Of a DNA stretch of 32,807 bases, positions 3,014 to 31,471 are shown in pieces. Numbering within the stretch: the stretch's first letter is position 1; every line of letters starts with the position of its first letter. This DNA is from a virus, in IMG/VR virus record IMGVR_UViG_3300049893_000782, positions 1 through 32,807 of that record, one strand, 5' to 3'. The notes below the pieces were generated by a model. The model was given only the letters and a program-made list of their open reading frames with translations, did not search any database and was not told where the DNA came from. Made by a program: the position numbers and the translations under genes.

Positions 3014-3919
3014 TCAACCCTCAATCAGATCCCAAATAATCCCGGTCACGTTGAAGTCCAACAAGATGGCCTTCTCATAACCATTCACGAACGCACGACC
3101 AGCAGGGTTCTCGATGTTGTAGATACCGAAGTCAATGACCGTGGTACCATCACCATTCATGACCCATCCGTAGATCGAGCCTTCTTTTGTTCGCGGCAGA
3201 CCGAGCATGTCGTAGACCTCATTCAGGAATACGTGCCCGCGTGCGCGCAGCATGTCATTTACGTGGTTCTGCTGAATGCGGAGGAAATATAGATTCGTCT
3301 CCGCGCTCTTCTGCCACTGGGTCGAATATTCATCGAAGAACTTGGCGAAGCCACTGGTGGTCTTGTCTTTGACCGTCATGACCTTGACTTTCTGCTTCGT
3401 CACGGTGCCGTCTTCATTGACGACTTTCTCGTTCGTGGATGATTCGTAGATCCCCAGGCGATAGTTGCGATCAACATCAGGCCCGAGCTCTTCGACAACG
3501 CGCTTGCGATATGCGGCGAAACCTTCAGCGAGAAGATTGTAGCCAGCGATCAAACCGACCTCGCGGCGTTTCATGATCCCATGAGATGACAGGATGGATG
3601 CGATCGACAACACGCCAATACCAACAGAGGGTCCGTAGAGCTTGGCGAAATCGAGGCCAGCATAGATATAGGTCAGACCAACAGCCTGTTGCTTCTCTTC
3701 GGGAGCAGCGTCGCCTTCATCGATGGTCTTGAGATTTTCTTTCACACCTTCAACGATAGCTGGTGCTTTCAAGGTAGCCTTCGCCGCCATTACGGCAGCC
3801 ACGACAATACCCGTCAACCCAAGACCTAACAGGATCTCAGGTGAGTGCTTCTTCACGACCAATGCACCACGATTGATCGCACGCACAGCTTTTGTCTGCA
3901 CTGTAGCAAGACTGTTCAT
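3014..3919 (-). CDS. DUF6353-type phage membrane protein, copy 1
   Basis: 301 residues with two predicted membrane segments (about 28-46 and 95-112). The first contains KHSPEILLGLGLTGIVVAAVMAAKAT, a signature I associate with DUF6353 proteins of Gram-positive phages (quoted in part: KHSPEILLGLG then VMAAKAT). The middle has GPSVGIGVLSIAS and YRKRVVEELG, and the C-terminus FVNGYEKAILLDFNVTG. A paralogue lies at 9254-10036. Start ATG 3919 overlaps the stop of the preceding gene (ATGA), and an AGAAGGAG ribosome site is present. The frame continues past its TGA for 50 codons (2861-3013). Function is unknown; inner membrane location is inferred. Confidence 0.88.
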   Translation of the reverse strand: MNSLATVQTKAVRAINRGALVVKKHSPEILLGLGLTGIVVAAVMAAKATLKAPAIVEGVKENLKTIDEGDAAPEEKQQAVGLTYIYAGLDFAKLYGPSVGIGVLSIASILSSHGIMKRREVGLIAGYNLLAEGFAAYRKRVVEELGPDVDRNYRLGIYESSTNEKVVNEDGTVTKQKVKVMTVKDKTTSGFAKFFDEYSTQWQKSAETNLYFLRIQQNHVNDMLRARGHVFLNEVYDMLGLPRTKEGSIYGWVMNGDGTTVIDFGIYNIENPAGRAFVNGYEKAILLDFNVTGIIWDLIEG

Positions 3920-9253: not shown

Positions 9254-10036
9254 TCACCACAACTTTGTTGGTTTGTTCGTGAACGTCAGTACGACGCATG
9301 GGACGTTGCCTGAAGCGAGTTTCGCTGAAATATCAATCTCCAGCAAACCCTTCTCTACGTCCCAACCGATATCACGTCCACTCTCCACGGAATCGAGACC
9401 CAATTCGTAATATAGGTCGTTGATCGGGAGTTGCATCTCTTTGAGAAGACGGTGATTGAATTCGTTGATCGTTCGCTTGATGTCCTCTACATCCCCTTTG
9501 AAATATCGGCCAGTGTAGGCATCATAGCAAAGAGTATCACCGAGACCGCTTACGATGATAGCTTTAGATTCCAACGGATTTTTTTTTAACTCGTCGGCAG
9601 CAATATCAGCGCGGATCTTCTTCTCTTTATTCTCGCCGATCGTTTCAACAACCTTCGCCTGGTATTCTTTGAGAGTGGATTCAGCAACTGCAAATAAGCT
9701 TGAGAGTGCGGCCGTTCGGCGATTGCTGATTGATGTTGCGCCAATGACGCATCCGATGCTCACCATACCCATTAGAGTAGATGGAGTATAGACCTTCCAG
9801 GTCAGTTGGATAGTATCAGCAAGGTTGATCGGGACATCGTATCCAGTTCCGTATTCATCATAACGGAAATTGCGTTCATGTTCGAGGATCTCCATCGCCT
9901 TGGGTGTTGCTTTTACTGCCATGACGACGGTGGATATGAATCCAGCAACTCCAAGCCCTGTGAGGATCGTGGGTGAGTGCTTGGTAAGCGTCCGTCCAAA
10001 TTGACGGGCAGCGTTAGTGATTAGGCTGAGATCCAT
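9254..10036 (-). CDS. DUF6353-type phage membrane protein, copy 2
   Basis: 260 residues, paralogous to the protein at 3014-3919. It has membrane segments at about 24-42 and 85-103, with TKHSPTILTGLGVAGF and VVMAVKATPKAM in the first, and PSTLMGMVSIG, SNRRTAALSSL and EYQAKVVETIGE in the middle. The C-terminal domain is shorter than in copy 1 and lacks the extension seen there. GAGGAAG precedes ATG 10036. It overlaps the 97-residue gene by 23 bp. Function is unknown; membrane location is inferred. Confidence 0.87.
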   Translation of the reverse strand: MDLSLITNAARQFGRTLTKHSPTILTGLGVAGFISTVVMAVKATPKAMEILEHERNFRYDEYGTGYDVPINLADTIQLTWKVYTPSTLMGMVSIGCVIGATSISNRRTAALSSLFAVAESTLKEYQAKVVETIGENKEKKIRADIAADELKKNPLESKAIIVSGLGDTLCYDAYTGRYFKGDVEDIKRTINEFNHRLLKEMQLPINDLYYELGLDSVESGRDIGWDVEKGLLEIDISAKLASGNVPCVVLTFTNKPTKLW

Positions 10037-11975: not shown

Positions 11976-12260
11976 TTACTTTCTCCACACCATTGTCAGT
12001 GCTTTGGTGGAAATAACGTTCAAGCGCTCGTAATTCAATACAAGCAGCAGTCCGGCGATATTCGCGCCTATTGTTAATATGGTATCCATACTGATTGCAC
12101 GCTCGTTTTTCTCTGCGCGAGCTTTAGTCAGTTTGGTTAACTGTTCCAATATCTTCGAATAATCATCGGATAGCGGGCTGATTGTGCTTAGTAGCGCACT
12201 CAAACGTTTTATTTCCTCATCCATTAGCGTCAGACTTTCTGGTCTTAGAATGTGTTTCAT
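11976..12260 (-). CDS. Small membrane protein with coiled N-terminal half
   Basis: 94 residues. A helical, probably coiled N-terminal part (MDEEIKRLSALLSTISPLSDDYSKILEQL) and one membrane segment (about 59-76), ending NYERLNVISTKALTMVWRK. I recall similar endings (NYE--NV--SKA---V) in small phage proteins of unknown function. It starts after promoter-like copy 6 and GAAAAGGAG, and ends with the terminator at 11915-11950. It lies next to the holin, so a lysis-related role is possible (inference). Confidence 0.75.
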   Translation of the reverse strand: MKHILRPESLTLMDEEIKRLSALLSTISPLSDDYSKILEQLTKLTKARAEKNERAISMDTILTIGANIAGLLLVLNYERLNVISTKALTMVWRK

Positions 12261-12317: not shown

Positions 12318-12836
12318 CTATTTTGCGGTTTCGGGCTCGACAACGACCTTCACGTTTTTGTTCTCGATGAGCTCGATCGCGACCAGTTTGTGGAACTGAG
12401 CAGTACTGAATCCGAGCAGCGCACCCAGGAATGCGTCGAAAGCAATCAAAGTCGACACAATCTCTTCCGGATATGGAAGATGCCAGATCGCGGCCATCGC
12501 GCCGTAAAGGGTAATAAGGGCGGGAAGGAAGATCTGTGCGGTCCAGGTGAGGAATTCATACATGTTATTGGAAAGGATCCACGCGCTCGCCTTCGTATTC
12601 GTGACGAGTTTGACCAGATTCAAGCGATACATCGGGTTGGTGACGTTGAATTTGTTTGTGGAAATGCCGAGCAGCATGGCCAGGAACAGGTCAATGGCGG
12701 CAAGCGTCGATACGATTTCCGTACCATAGGGCAGCGCCCAGGTATTGGACATAGCCATGTAGAACACGCCGAGGGCGGGAAGCAGAACAAGTGTGATCCA
12801 CTTCAAAGCATCGTATACGCGGTTTGATAACATCAT
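12318..12836 (-). CDS. Holin, tandem-duplicated Dp-1-type (two domains in one chain)
   Basis: 172 residues made of two homologous units: residues 3-64 (LSNRVYDALKW, LPYGTEIVSTLAAIDLFLAMLLGIST) and 88-149 (LSNNMYEFLTW, LPYPEEIVSTLIAFDAFLGALLGFST), offset by 85. Each matches the Dp-1-type holin pattern of two membrane helices, and the usual family length is about 75 residues. The protein should have four helices. Holins form lesions in the inner membrane that time lysis. It overlaps the preceding gene (ATGA) and follows the tail adhesins, the usual lysis position, but no endolysin follows. Both units look intact, so this is a fusion rather than decay. Confidence 0.88.
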   Translation of the reverse strand: MMLSNRVYDALKWITLVLLPALGVFYMAMSNTWALPYGTEIVSTLAAIDLFLAMLLGISTNKFNVTNPMYRLNLVKLVTNTKASAWILSNNMYEFLTWTAQIFLPALITLYGAMAAIWHLPYPEEIVSTLIAFDAFLGALLGFSTAQFHKLVAIELIENKNVKVVVEPETAK

Positions 12837-13189
12837 TTGTTGGTCTCCTTGGTGATAGTATGAATATAATCGTTCTTTCGGATGGGTAGATTATCTACCT
12901 CCTGCATTATCCTCTTGGCAGAACCGTTTCCACCAAGAGCTTCATAGGCCTTGTACAAATATACATTGAGGTTTTCGTACTCGTCTTGCGAGATCCAACC
13001 ACGGTCAATGTACATCATTCCAAGGCTTAGAATTCGGTCATGAGCTAATCCAAGCAATAACTCAGTTTGAAGGCTTTTACGCTCCTTCTTGTTCCCAATA
13101 AATAGCCAGAATCCCGATGAGGCTACGAATGAGATTATAACTGGGATTACTATCTGGATTAGTTCCAACATAGTTGTTTGTTCTTGCAT
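12833..13189 (-). CDS. Single-helix membrane protein of the lysis region
   Basis: 118 residues: one N-terminal membrane helix (about 8-31) and a soluble domain with LLLGLAHDRILSLGMMYIDRGWISQDEYENLNVYLYKAYEALGGNG (motif region about residues 45-90; key parts GLAHDRI, GWI--DEYENL, LGGNG). I know this pattern from a common phage family adjacent to holins; its function is not established, and a holin-associated or antiholin role is inferred from position. The nearest good ribosome site (AAGGGAG) is about 14 nt from ATG 13189. Confidence 0.8.
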   Translation of the reverse strand: MQEQTTMLELIQIVIPVIISFVASSGFWLFIGNKKERKSLQTELLLGLAHDRILSLGMMYIDRGWISQDEYENLNVYLYKAYEALGGNGSAKRIMQEVDNLPIRKNDYIHTITKETNK

Positions 13190-27471: not shown

Positions 27472-27849
27472 TTAACCGTTTCGAAGCCAGGCAGTATAAG
27501 CCGCATTGTAAGTGTCGGCATTCTTGTTGCTCATGCTAGTGAACATTCTTACCGTGTCCATTATCAAATATGCAGAAATGAATGCACTTACAACCTTTGC
27601 TGCTTTCTTTACTTTCTCTTGTTTGAGCAGTTCTTTGTATTTCAAATTCTTCTGCTCATTCAAGAACTTCTGAGCTTGTTCTGGGGTTACTTGTTTTCGG
27701 CGAATGATCTTGTGATCTCCGTAACGTTTAGTTACGATTGATAACTTACCACCGGCTTTACTGAGATGTCTTGTAGATGGTGTTAAGTTTCGACGAACTC
27801 CCCATTTCATTCCAGGGATACCCCAGTGAATTAATGGTCTATCGTTCAT
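27472..27849 (-). CDS. HWGIPGMKWG-tagged small protein, copy near portal
   Basis: 125 residues starting MNDRPLIHWGIPGMKWGVRR, the conserved N-terminal tag found on many Gram-positive phage head-region proteins (usually HHGI-GMKWG). The rest is basic, helical and has one possible membrane or hydrophobic segment (about 87-103, VVSAFISAYLIMDTVRM). The function of the tag is not established. It lies between large terminase and portal. A second tagged protein is at 31064-31471. Confidence 0.8.
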   Translation of the reverse strand: MNDRPLIHWGIPGMKWGVRRNLTPSTRHLSKAGGKLSIVTKRYGDHKIIRRKQVTPEQAQKFLNEQKNLKYKELLKQEKVKKAAKVVSAFISAYLIMDTVRMFTSMSNKNADTYNAAYTAWLRNG

Positions 27850-29615: not shown

Positions 29616-30161
29616 TTACTCACTTGTCGATGTTTTGTTGTACCCGATTCCACCATTATTAAAGGCTAGTGCTCTCTTGTATGTGTCTGGATCGGTTTCC
29701 ATATGATCAAGAAAGAACATTATAGAATCTAAAGCTTGTCTTGGATACAACAAATTTTGTTCGTAGTCCATCCAGAGTACAGGAAAGGGGTATGCCGTTA
29801 GGTAGTGACCCCAAAAACCCTGATACTGTAGATGACGTAATATTGCATGTTCCCCATATTTCTCTCGTAGGGTTAATGGATTCCGGTAGGCATATATAAA
29901 CCTAATGTTTGGTATAAGATATGCCGTAGACCATAGAAAACGATAAAGTGGCGGGAATTTAACTCCCCAAACGGAATGTTTGGCGTTTCGCTTCAACACT
30001 GTTTCGATAAAATCTCGTTCAGTTTCAACCTTAGCGAATTCAGCATCTTCATAGGTTCCATCTGTCAACCAGGTTTCACCCATAAATATACCCAAGTTAG
30101 CTAAAGTTCCAGCGATAAGCGATGTTCCTGAGTGTGGAGCTCCGGCCACAAAAATGGTCAT
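29616..30161 (-). CDS. Sulfotransferase-like P-loop protein
   Basis: 181 residues from ATG 30161 (ATG 30170 is also open). The start MTIFVAGAPHSGTSLIAGTL contains the PAPS-binding P-loop of sulfotransferases (GAPHSGTS, about 7-14), LGIFMGE follows, VWGVKFPPLYRFL lies mid-way and FIYAYRNP (88-95) corresponds to the second cofactor motif. VLWMDYEQNLLYPRQALDSI fits the C-terminal helix region. Predicted to transfer sulfate from PAPS, or to bind a nucleotide, with an unknown acceptor. At 181 residues it is shorter than most family members. It sits among packaging genes, overlapping the SPRY-like gene by 4 bp. Confidence 0.82.
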   Translation of the reverse strand: MTIFVAGAPHSGTSLIAGTLANLGIFMGETWLTDGTYEDAEFAKVETERDFIETVLKRNAKHSVWGVKFPPLYRFLWSTAYLIPNIRFIYAYRNPLTLREKYGEHAILRHLQYQGFWGHYLTAYPFPVLWMDYEQNLLYPRQALDSIMFFLDHMETDPDTYKRALAFNNGGIGYNKTSTSE

Positions 30162-30784
30162 TGGCTCCATGTGCTATATCCAGTCGGAACTGGAAAGACA
30201 AATGGAGTTGCACCAAAGTTAATCGTCAACCATGCCTCGAGAGTTCCATAGGAATCAGTTCTGCGAAATGGTCTTACGAATGGAACATATGGTTGTCCAC
30301 TCGGAGTAAACGTCCATCCTGGAGAAGTACCAGTTACAGGATCTGCTCCGGTATTCCACCGTCCATCGGTATAGGATATAGCAGACAACCAGATTTTTCC
30401 AGCATTAATATCAACAGCAAGCCTTGACGGATAAGTCGCACCAAGTCGTGGAGTCGCTCCCATAACAAAACCAGTTCCATTACTGGCTTGTGTTGGGGTT
30501 AGCGAATTTAAACCAAACTGGATCTGACCAGCATTGAAGTTATCAAATACCCGCCAAACCTCGAGATAGAACTTTCCACTTGTTTTAGCAATGCTTGAAC
30601 GAGCACTTCCCAATTTAGTCCCATAACCAACATAGTCTGTGATCCTTGCTGTGAGATCGCCATCACTTAAGGTGACATCTTTCAATTTTGCTGGATTTGG
30701 ATCGAGGGTTGCGTAAACTGTAGGGGGCGGTCCGGGCTTAACCGATATGAATGTCGGACCAATTCCGACTCCTATCTTGCCCAT
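30158..30784 (-). CDS. SPRY-like domain virion protein
   Basis: 208 residues. A proline-rich start is followed by a SPRY-like beta sandwich: TLDPNPAKLKDVTLSDGDL, SIAKTSGKFYLEVWRV, IQFGLNS, LAVDINAGKIWLS, and the end LTINFGATPFVFPVPTGYSTW. SPRY domains recognise protein or glycan ligands and occur in phage tail and head-fibre proteins. Position next to head genes suggests a capsid fibre or decoration (inference). ATG 30784 lies 1 bp after the previous stop; a longer frame would overlap it fully. Confidence 0.76.
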   Translation of the reverse strand: MGKIGVGIGPTFISVKPGPPPTVYATLDPNPAKLKDVTLSDGDLTARITDYVGYGTKLGSARSSIAKTSGKFYLEVWRVFDNFNAGQIQFGLNSLTPTQASNGTGFVMGATPRLGATYPSRLAVDINAGKIWLSAISYTDGRWNTGADPVTGTSPGWTFTPSGQPYVPFVRPFRRTDSYGTLEAWLTINFGATPFVFPVPTGYSTWSQ

Positions 30785-31063: not shown

Positions 31064-31471
31064 TTAAGATGAACTTGCATTTTGAACCAGTTTCAGTAGT
31101 TCAGGAAGACCCTTTTCTACTGCACTGGCAACGTATTTTGACGCCAGTTGTTTTCCAGCATTTGTGAGAACCTCGGTAACGAATTTCCTACCTGGTCCAG
31201 CGTCAATTGCCGATAGATCTTTCAGCTGCTTTTCGAGTTGAAGTCTTGTAGTGAGCTTCTTCAGTTCATCATTGCTCATCTCACTAACTTTCTTCTTCCT
31301 CAACCCGGCTACTGTCTTGTGATCCTCACTCTGGCGAGCTTGGGCTGCGGCACGTTTAGCGGCAAGATCGACTCCATACTTTTGTTTGACGGAACGATCC
31401 ATATGATCCCGCATTTTGCGCCGAATACCCCATTTCATTCCGGGTATACCCCAGTGAAATAAATCGTTCAT
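31064..31471 (-). CDS. HWGIPGMKWG-tagged protein, copy near terminase small subunit
   Basis: 135 residues starting MNDLFHWGIPGMKWGIRRKMRD. The tag is the same as in 27472-27849 but the rest differs: a long charged helical region (AAKRAAAQARQSEDHK, SNDELKKLTTRLQLEKQLKDL) and a C-terminal helical end. The helical charged body resembles scaffold-like proteins. AGAGGAGG precedes the ATG, which overlaps the connector stop by 4 bp. Confidence 0.8.
   Translation of the reverse strand: MNDLFHWGIPGMKWGIRRKMRDHMDRSVKQKYGVDLAAKRAAAQARQSEDHKTVAGLRKKKVSEMSNDELKKLTTRLQLEKQLKDLSAIDAGPGRKFVTEVLTNAGKQLASKYVASAVEKGLPELLKLVQNASSS

Follow-up and report, generated by a model that had tools for sequence, protein, structure and literature searches.

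An unsolved question in phage lysis is the number and arrangement of holins needed to open the membrane, and a gene that appears to join two holin units in one chain raises the question of what such a protein does and how it arose. The gene considered here lies at positions 12318 to 12836 of a 32,807-nucleotide stretch of viral DNA (IMG/VR record IMGVR_UViG_3300049893_000782, hereafter the window), where an initial annotation had proposed a holin built of two complete units of the Dp-1 type. We recovered the open reading frame at exactly these coordinates and place it on the minus strand, which the annotation had left unstated; its product is 172 aa long, with two PF16938 (Phage_holin_Dp1) units and four predicted transmembrane (TM) helices. 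The annotation was silent on the sharing of this arrangement across a clade, the asymmetric divergence of the two halves and the conserved single-TM proteins that flank the gene.

The proposed homology between residues 3-64 (unit 1, 12645 to 12830, minus strand) and residues 88-149 (unit 2, 12390 to 12575, minus strand) at an offset of 85 is borne out by a gapless alignment with 33 of 62 positions identical (53%). The local alignment score of the halves, 162, is far above that of shuffled sequences (n=2000; mean 26.8, sd 5.0, maximum 50), and the three marks that had been described, LSN--Y, LPY--EIVSTL and D-FL--LLG-ST, are all found in both halves, as is the predicted linker of about 23 residues, bearing VTNPMYRLNLVKL, between them. 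PF16938 hits the whole protein twice, with 143.9 bits together. A profile check of each half, set beforehand as the test on which the reading should stand or fall, gave 75.0 bits for unit 1 and 77.3 bits for unit 2 in six-frame translation, each exceeding the cut-off of 25 roughly threefold, and the holin families PHROGs 881 and 9233 each match twice within the protein. In nucleotides the halves share just 100 of 186 positions (54%), and a recent duplication can therefore be ruled out as their source.

Each unit is predicted to form a helical hairpin with both termini in the cytoplasm, as is typical of PF16938, a prediction that draws on hydropathy, the positive-inside pattern and AlphaFold. 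An AlphaFold model built from an alignment of five double holins, described below, contains two hairpins, with helices at residues 5-33 and 38-61 in the first and 90-118 and 123-158 in the second. Hydropathy gives four peaks in four of these five proteins, the first helix of the remaining one (L242) falling under the threshold, and the N-terminus, linker and tail are positively charged while the outer loops are almost without positive charge. The number of helices per unit is even, so both hairpins would be inserted the same way round, and the whole protein is predicted, with the modest certainty of a model, to have four TM helices in an N-in/C-in topology. Confidence is good within the helices (pLDDT about 85-88), low in the linker (residues 61-83) and modest overall (pTM 0.57); given this value and the five-sequence alignment, the modelled packing of the hairpins against each other is at best provisional. 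A search of solved structures gave no real match. The structural part of the earlier reading, with two complete Dp-1-type units per chain, four predicted helices and a linker placed in the cytoplasm, thus stands, and its further suggestion that a covalent dimer would change the oligomer and the timing of lysis is plausible.

The linker (residues 65-87, 12576 to 12644, minus strand) comprises 23 aa with a net positive charge and the C-terminal tail (residues 150-172, 12321 to 12389, minus strand) is likewise charged, its end part being modelled with low confidence; both are predicted to be cytoplasmic. A Shine-Dalgarno sequence, AAGGAG (12845 to 12850, minus strand), lies 8 nt upstream of the ATG, and such sequences also precede the remaining four double holins. 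The start region reads ATGATG, which would yield products beginning MM- or M- that, compared in the manner of dual-start holins, show no difference in charge. The window's linker holds no internal start with a Shine-Dalgarno sequence, and a single polypeptide is therefore expected. Internal translation of unit 2 was rejected more generally, there being no conserved internal start with such a signal among the five genes and a Shine-Dalgarno-like stretch in L242 alone, before a GTG. We also considered whether the linker is a remnant of the C-terminal tail of about 45 aa found on some single Dp-1 holins, often with a V-FKV-like end (L123, L126, L127, L133, L134, L139-L143, L149 and L157), and discarded this idea, as alignment scores were no better than those of shuffles (best value about 0.05 among many tests).

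The initial annotation had called for a search for other double holins, and four were located on independent viral contigs, 34-60% identical to that of the window. One of them, L162, was found with unit 2 and its tail as query; this double holin is intact, has 165 aa, shares 60% identity with the window's and retains the linker motif NPMYRL. The others (L240, L241 and L242) were the three stretches returned from the viral collection by a DNA pattern that required a pair of W--PY motifs roughly as far apart as expected, and all three are double by profile. Pairwise identity among the five is 34-62%, and their linkers differ in both length and sequence. In every other Dp-1 relative examined the unit occurs once per chain: in a first round of relatives throughout, in all 179 further distinct holin ORFs of the fetched loci, at 180 places in 180 matching phage records, in all six plasmids with Dp-1 relatives and in the 15 of 786 genomes of two bacterial classes that matched. 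With L241 as the query, 124 phage records matched at 124 places, with no doubles among named phages. The double arrangement is rare; as the DNA pattern was a narrow one, the count of five is a minimum and allows no estimate of prevalence. A search of the open-access literature yielded no account of a PF16938 holin in doubled form, and within that literature the doubled unit appears to be an undescribed feature. Since holin-like proteins with multiple TM helices are already known (PMC9671378), four helices are not in themselves new.

The window's gene differs in composition from its immediate neighbours, with a GC of 0.51 and a GC3 of 0.62-0.69 against about 0.42 and 0.46, and GC skew flips across it. 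The raised GC and GC3 might be taken as a trace of two phage contigs wrongly joined in assembly. This is ruled out by the four further double holins, which have the same neighbours on independent contigs, and the 54% of bases shared by the halves is too little for a repeat-driven join, so that we give misassembly almost no weight.

The five phages form one clade in a tree of DUF6353, a protein of the holin block encoded by an independent gene (9254 to 10036, minus strand in the window), with support of 95/92 and presence in 96% of bootstrap trees. This clade is nested among single-holin phages, next to L157 and L149. In trees of the units themselves, unit 1 of the window pairs with unit 1 of L162 at 97-98 and their second units pair at 95-96, while unit 2 of L240, L241 and L242 groups at 95; the halves have thus stayed distinct from each other, and nothing points to homogenisation between them. 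The unit tree, of 63 columns, does not by itself decide between one origin and two, nor between duplication of one holin and the joining of two. Separate origins for the window with L162 and for L240 with L241 and L242 are disfavoured by the DUF6353 tree, with the unit tree indecisive. Most likely, then, the double holin goes back to a single fusion or duplication in an ancestor of the lineage and has been inherited since, with the halves evolving separately.

Each half departs from single holins in its own way, as a column-by-column comparison with 170 of these makes apparent. The glycine at position 51 in the FLGxLLG stretch of TM2, found in 164 of 170 singles, is present in unit 2 of all five doubles and in unit 1 of one (L241), the other first units having Ala or Ser. 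Conversely, the aspartate at position 7 of the N-terminal Y-D, found in 162 of 170 singles, is kept in unit 1 of all five and in unit 2 of none. The Fisher p values (3e-5 for G51 and 1e-6 for D7) overstate the asymmetry, because the test was post hoc and the five related phages are not independent. Part of the change in unit 2 may simply be an effect of an N-terminus that is no longer free. The halves have probably become specialised.

If so, one half might restrain the other. An inactive unit 1 could act as a built-in antiholin for unit 2 in the same chain, a fixed 1:1 pair replacing the two products of dual-start holins, and, judged from the sequences, this is the main rival to a pre-fused dimer. 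It would fit the absence of the TM2 glycine of the small-xxx-small motif from unit 1 in four of five doubles and its retention in unit 2 of all five, and the dual-start pairs of lambda and phage 21 act via inactive heterodimers (PMC13056207). The replacements, however, are still small residues and L241 keeps the glycine, while the N-terminal aspartate and K/R pattern are missing from unit 2 and not from unit 1, which means that neither half is unaltered; we regard a built-in antiholin as unlikely. Slightly less likely still is the broader notion of a covalent holin and regulator, in which a holin and an inhibitory copy are locked 1:1 and timing is set by their intramolecular interaction. That each half has lost one motif near-invariant in single holins could also point to a neutral relic, in which two units were fused by accident and one of them is now decaying. 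Both halves, however, remain open with strong profile matches in five phages whose double holins fall to 34% identity, and the losses are consistent rather than random, which makes decay very improbable.

The genes around the double holin are shared too. In all five loci a single-TM protein of 118-120 aa (phrog_4105), the double holin, a protein of 87-97 aa with a C-terminal TM helix (phrog_5818) and a DUF6353 protein follow in that order, and tail and structural genes precede the holin; a tail protein of about 300 aa and a Gp37-like protein are among these upstream genes in the window, L162, L241 and L242. In all five the phrog_4105 gene runs up to the start of the holin or overlaps it, and in the window it encodes a 118-aa protein with one N-terminal TM helix, predicted N-out/C-in (12833 to 13189, minus strand), whose stop overlaps the holin start (ATGA). 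Directly downstream, as in the other four loci, stands the phrog_5818 gene (94 aa, one C-terminal TM helix, 11976 to 12260, minus strand); used as a direct query of viral contigs its product found no relatives, and a profile search later recovered some. The block also occurs with a single, tail-bearing holin in other viral contigs, and the doubling therefore took place inside an existing cassette. DUF6353 has two paralogues in the window, at 3014-3919 and 9254-10036, and occupies two places in many phages of the group. Elsewhere in the window, the genes at 27472-27849 and 31064-31471 are different yet share HWGIPGMKWG-RR as their N-terminal motif; both are related to phrog_7021, and the latter also has a weak relation to DUF7211, and a weakly sulfotransferase-like gene (PF13469, below cut-off; 29616-30170) adjoins that of the large terminase.

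Whether this block serves lysis needs careful consideration. Searches for CHAP, Amidase_3, GH25, Peptidase_M15_3 and NLPC_P60 domains found none in the five double-holin contigs, which are possibly fragments, and Amidase_2 was absent from the two contigs tested for it, the window and that of L162; it is thus family membership and position that argue for a role in lysis, and this weakens all readings that involve lysis. Either the lysin of these phages is encoded outside the contigs or its type goes unrecognised. The absence of the tested endolysin domains would suit a membrane protein with a function other than lysis, for example in depolarisation or in a late membrane-remodelling complex with its single-TM neighbours and DUF6353. 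In F1 mycobacteriophages lysis does not require the two-TM LysF1a, and it is the one-TM LysF1b that carries the lysis phenotype (PMC13056207), so that the main pore need not come from the holin-like gene of a pair like this. Against this, both halves match PF16938 and the PHROG holin families strongly, Dp-1 holins belong to the lytic cassettes of Enterococcus phages (PMC10630273), and the contig of L149, a single-holin relative with the same block, encodes a GH25 domain. We therefore think a non-lysis function improbable, if less so than decay.

Taken together, these data lead us to favour, as the probable reading, a pre-fused holin of single origin, in which two Dp-1-type hairpins with specialised halves form a four-helix, N-in/C-in protein that opens the membrane. 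The N-terminus, linker and C-terminus would lie in the cytoplasm and both LPY loops outside, and late in infection the protein would build up in the cytoplasmic membrane, each chain being in effect a ready-made dimer whose two hairpins differ. Oligomers of these dimers would then open the membrane and give the endolysin access, with the single-TM proteins encoded directly before and after the holin as likely partners or regulators. Such a covalent dimer, occurring in nature and with halves that can be told apart, would be useful, since its stoichiometry is fixed and mutations can be made in one half at a time; the five related phages supply natural variants, and the single-holin sisters L149 and L157, which share much of the block, could serve as controls.

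How does this protein compare with systems already described? Phage_holin_Dp1 (PF16938; PHROGs 881 and 9233) comprises single-unit holins of Enterococcus, Lactococcus, Streptomyces, Arthrobacter and other phages. Each half of the double holin resembles these, being a full-length match with the W--PY and FLG-LLG-S marks and two TM helices. The window's protein and those of L162, L240, L241 and L242 differ in having two units per chain and four predicted helices, where the same-block relatives have one unit followed by a tail of about 45 aa; the four predicted helices also set the protein apart from class II holins, which have exactly two TM helices and are N-in/C-in. LysF1a and LysF1b offer a parallel in layout, with a one-TM N-out/C-in protein adjoining a two-TM N-in/C-in protein, and in about 30% of M. 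smegmatis phages a four-TM protein replaces the two-TM one (PMC13056207). We found no sequence relation between that pair and the window's, and the 118-aa protein has no match to PF10874.

Closer parallels are found in Scapunavirus (Streptomyces phage RosaAsantewaa) and Mudcatvirus (Arthrobacter phage Xenomorph), whose block resembles the window's with small differences: a tape measure gene, two minor tail proteins, a small protein, the holin and a phrog_5818 protein follow in order, the small protein belonging to phrog_4105 in RosaAsantewaa and to phrog_7656 in Xenomorph, and RosaAsantewaa has DUF6353 relatives further down. Unlike in the window, the holin in these phages is single, with a C-terminal tail. 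Finally, the 'phage holin' of Siphovirus contig89 (AIE38350, 212 aa), the top-ranked but weak structural match in BFVD, is a natural fusion in the same type of cassette. Its reading frame (L244:2894-3532, KF594184) joins a single-TM phrog_4105 protein to a single Dp-1-type holin with a tail, so that its one Dp-1-type unit has as its partner the phrog_4105 protein and not a second holin. By the logic of gene fusion, this is a hint that the phrog_4105 protein and the holin cooperate.
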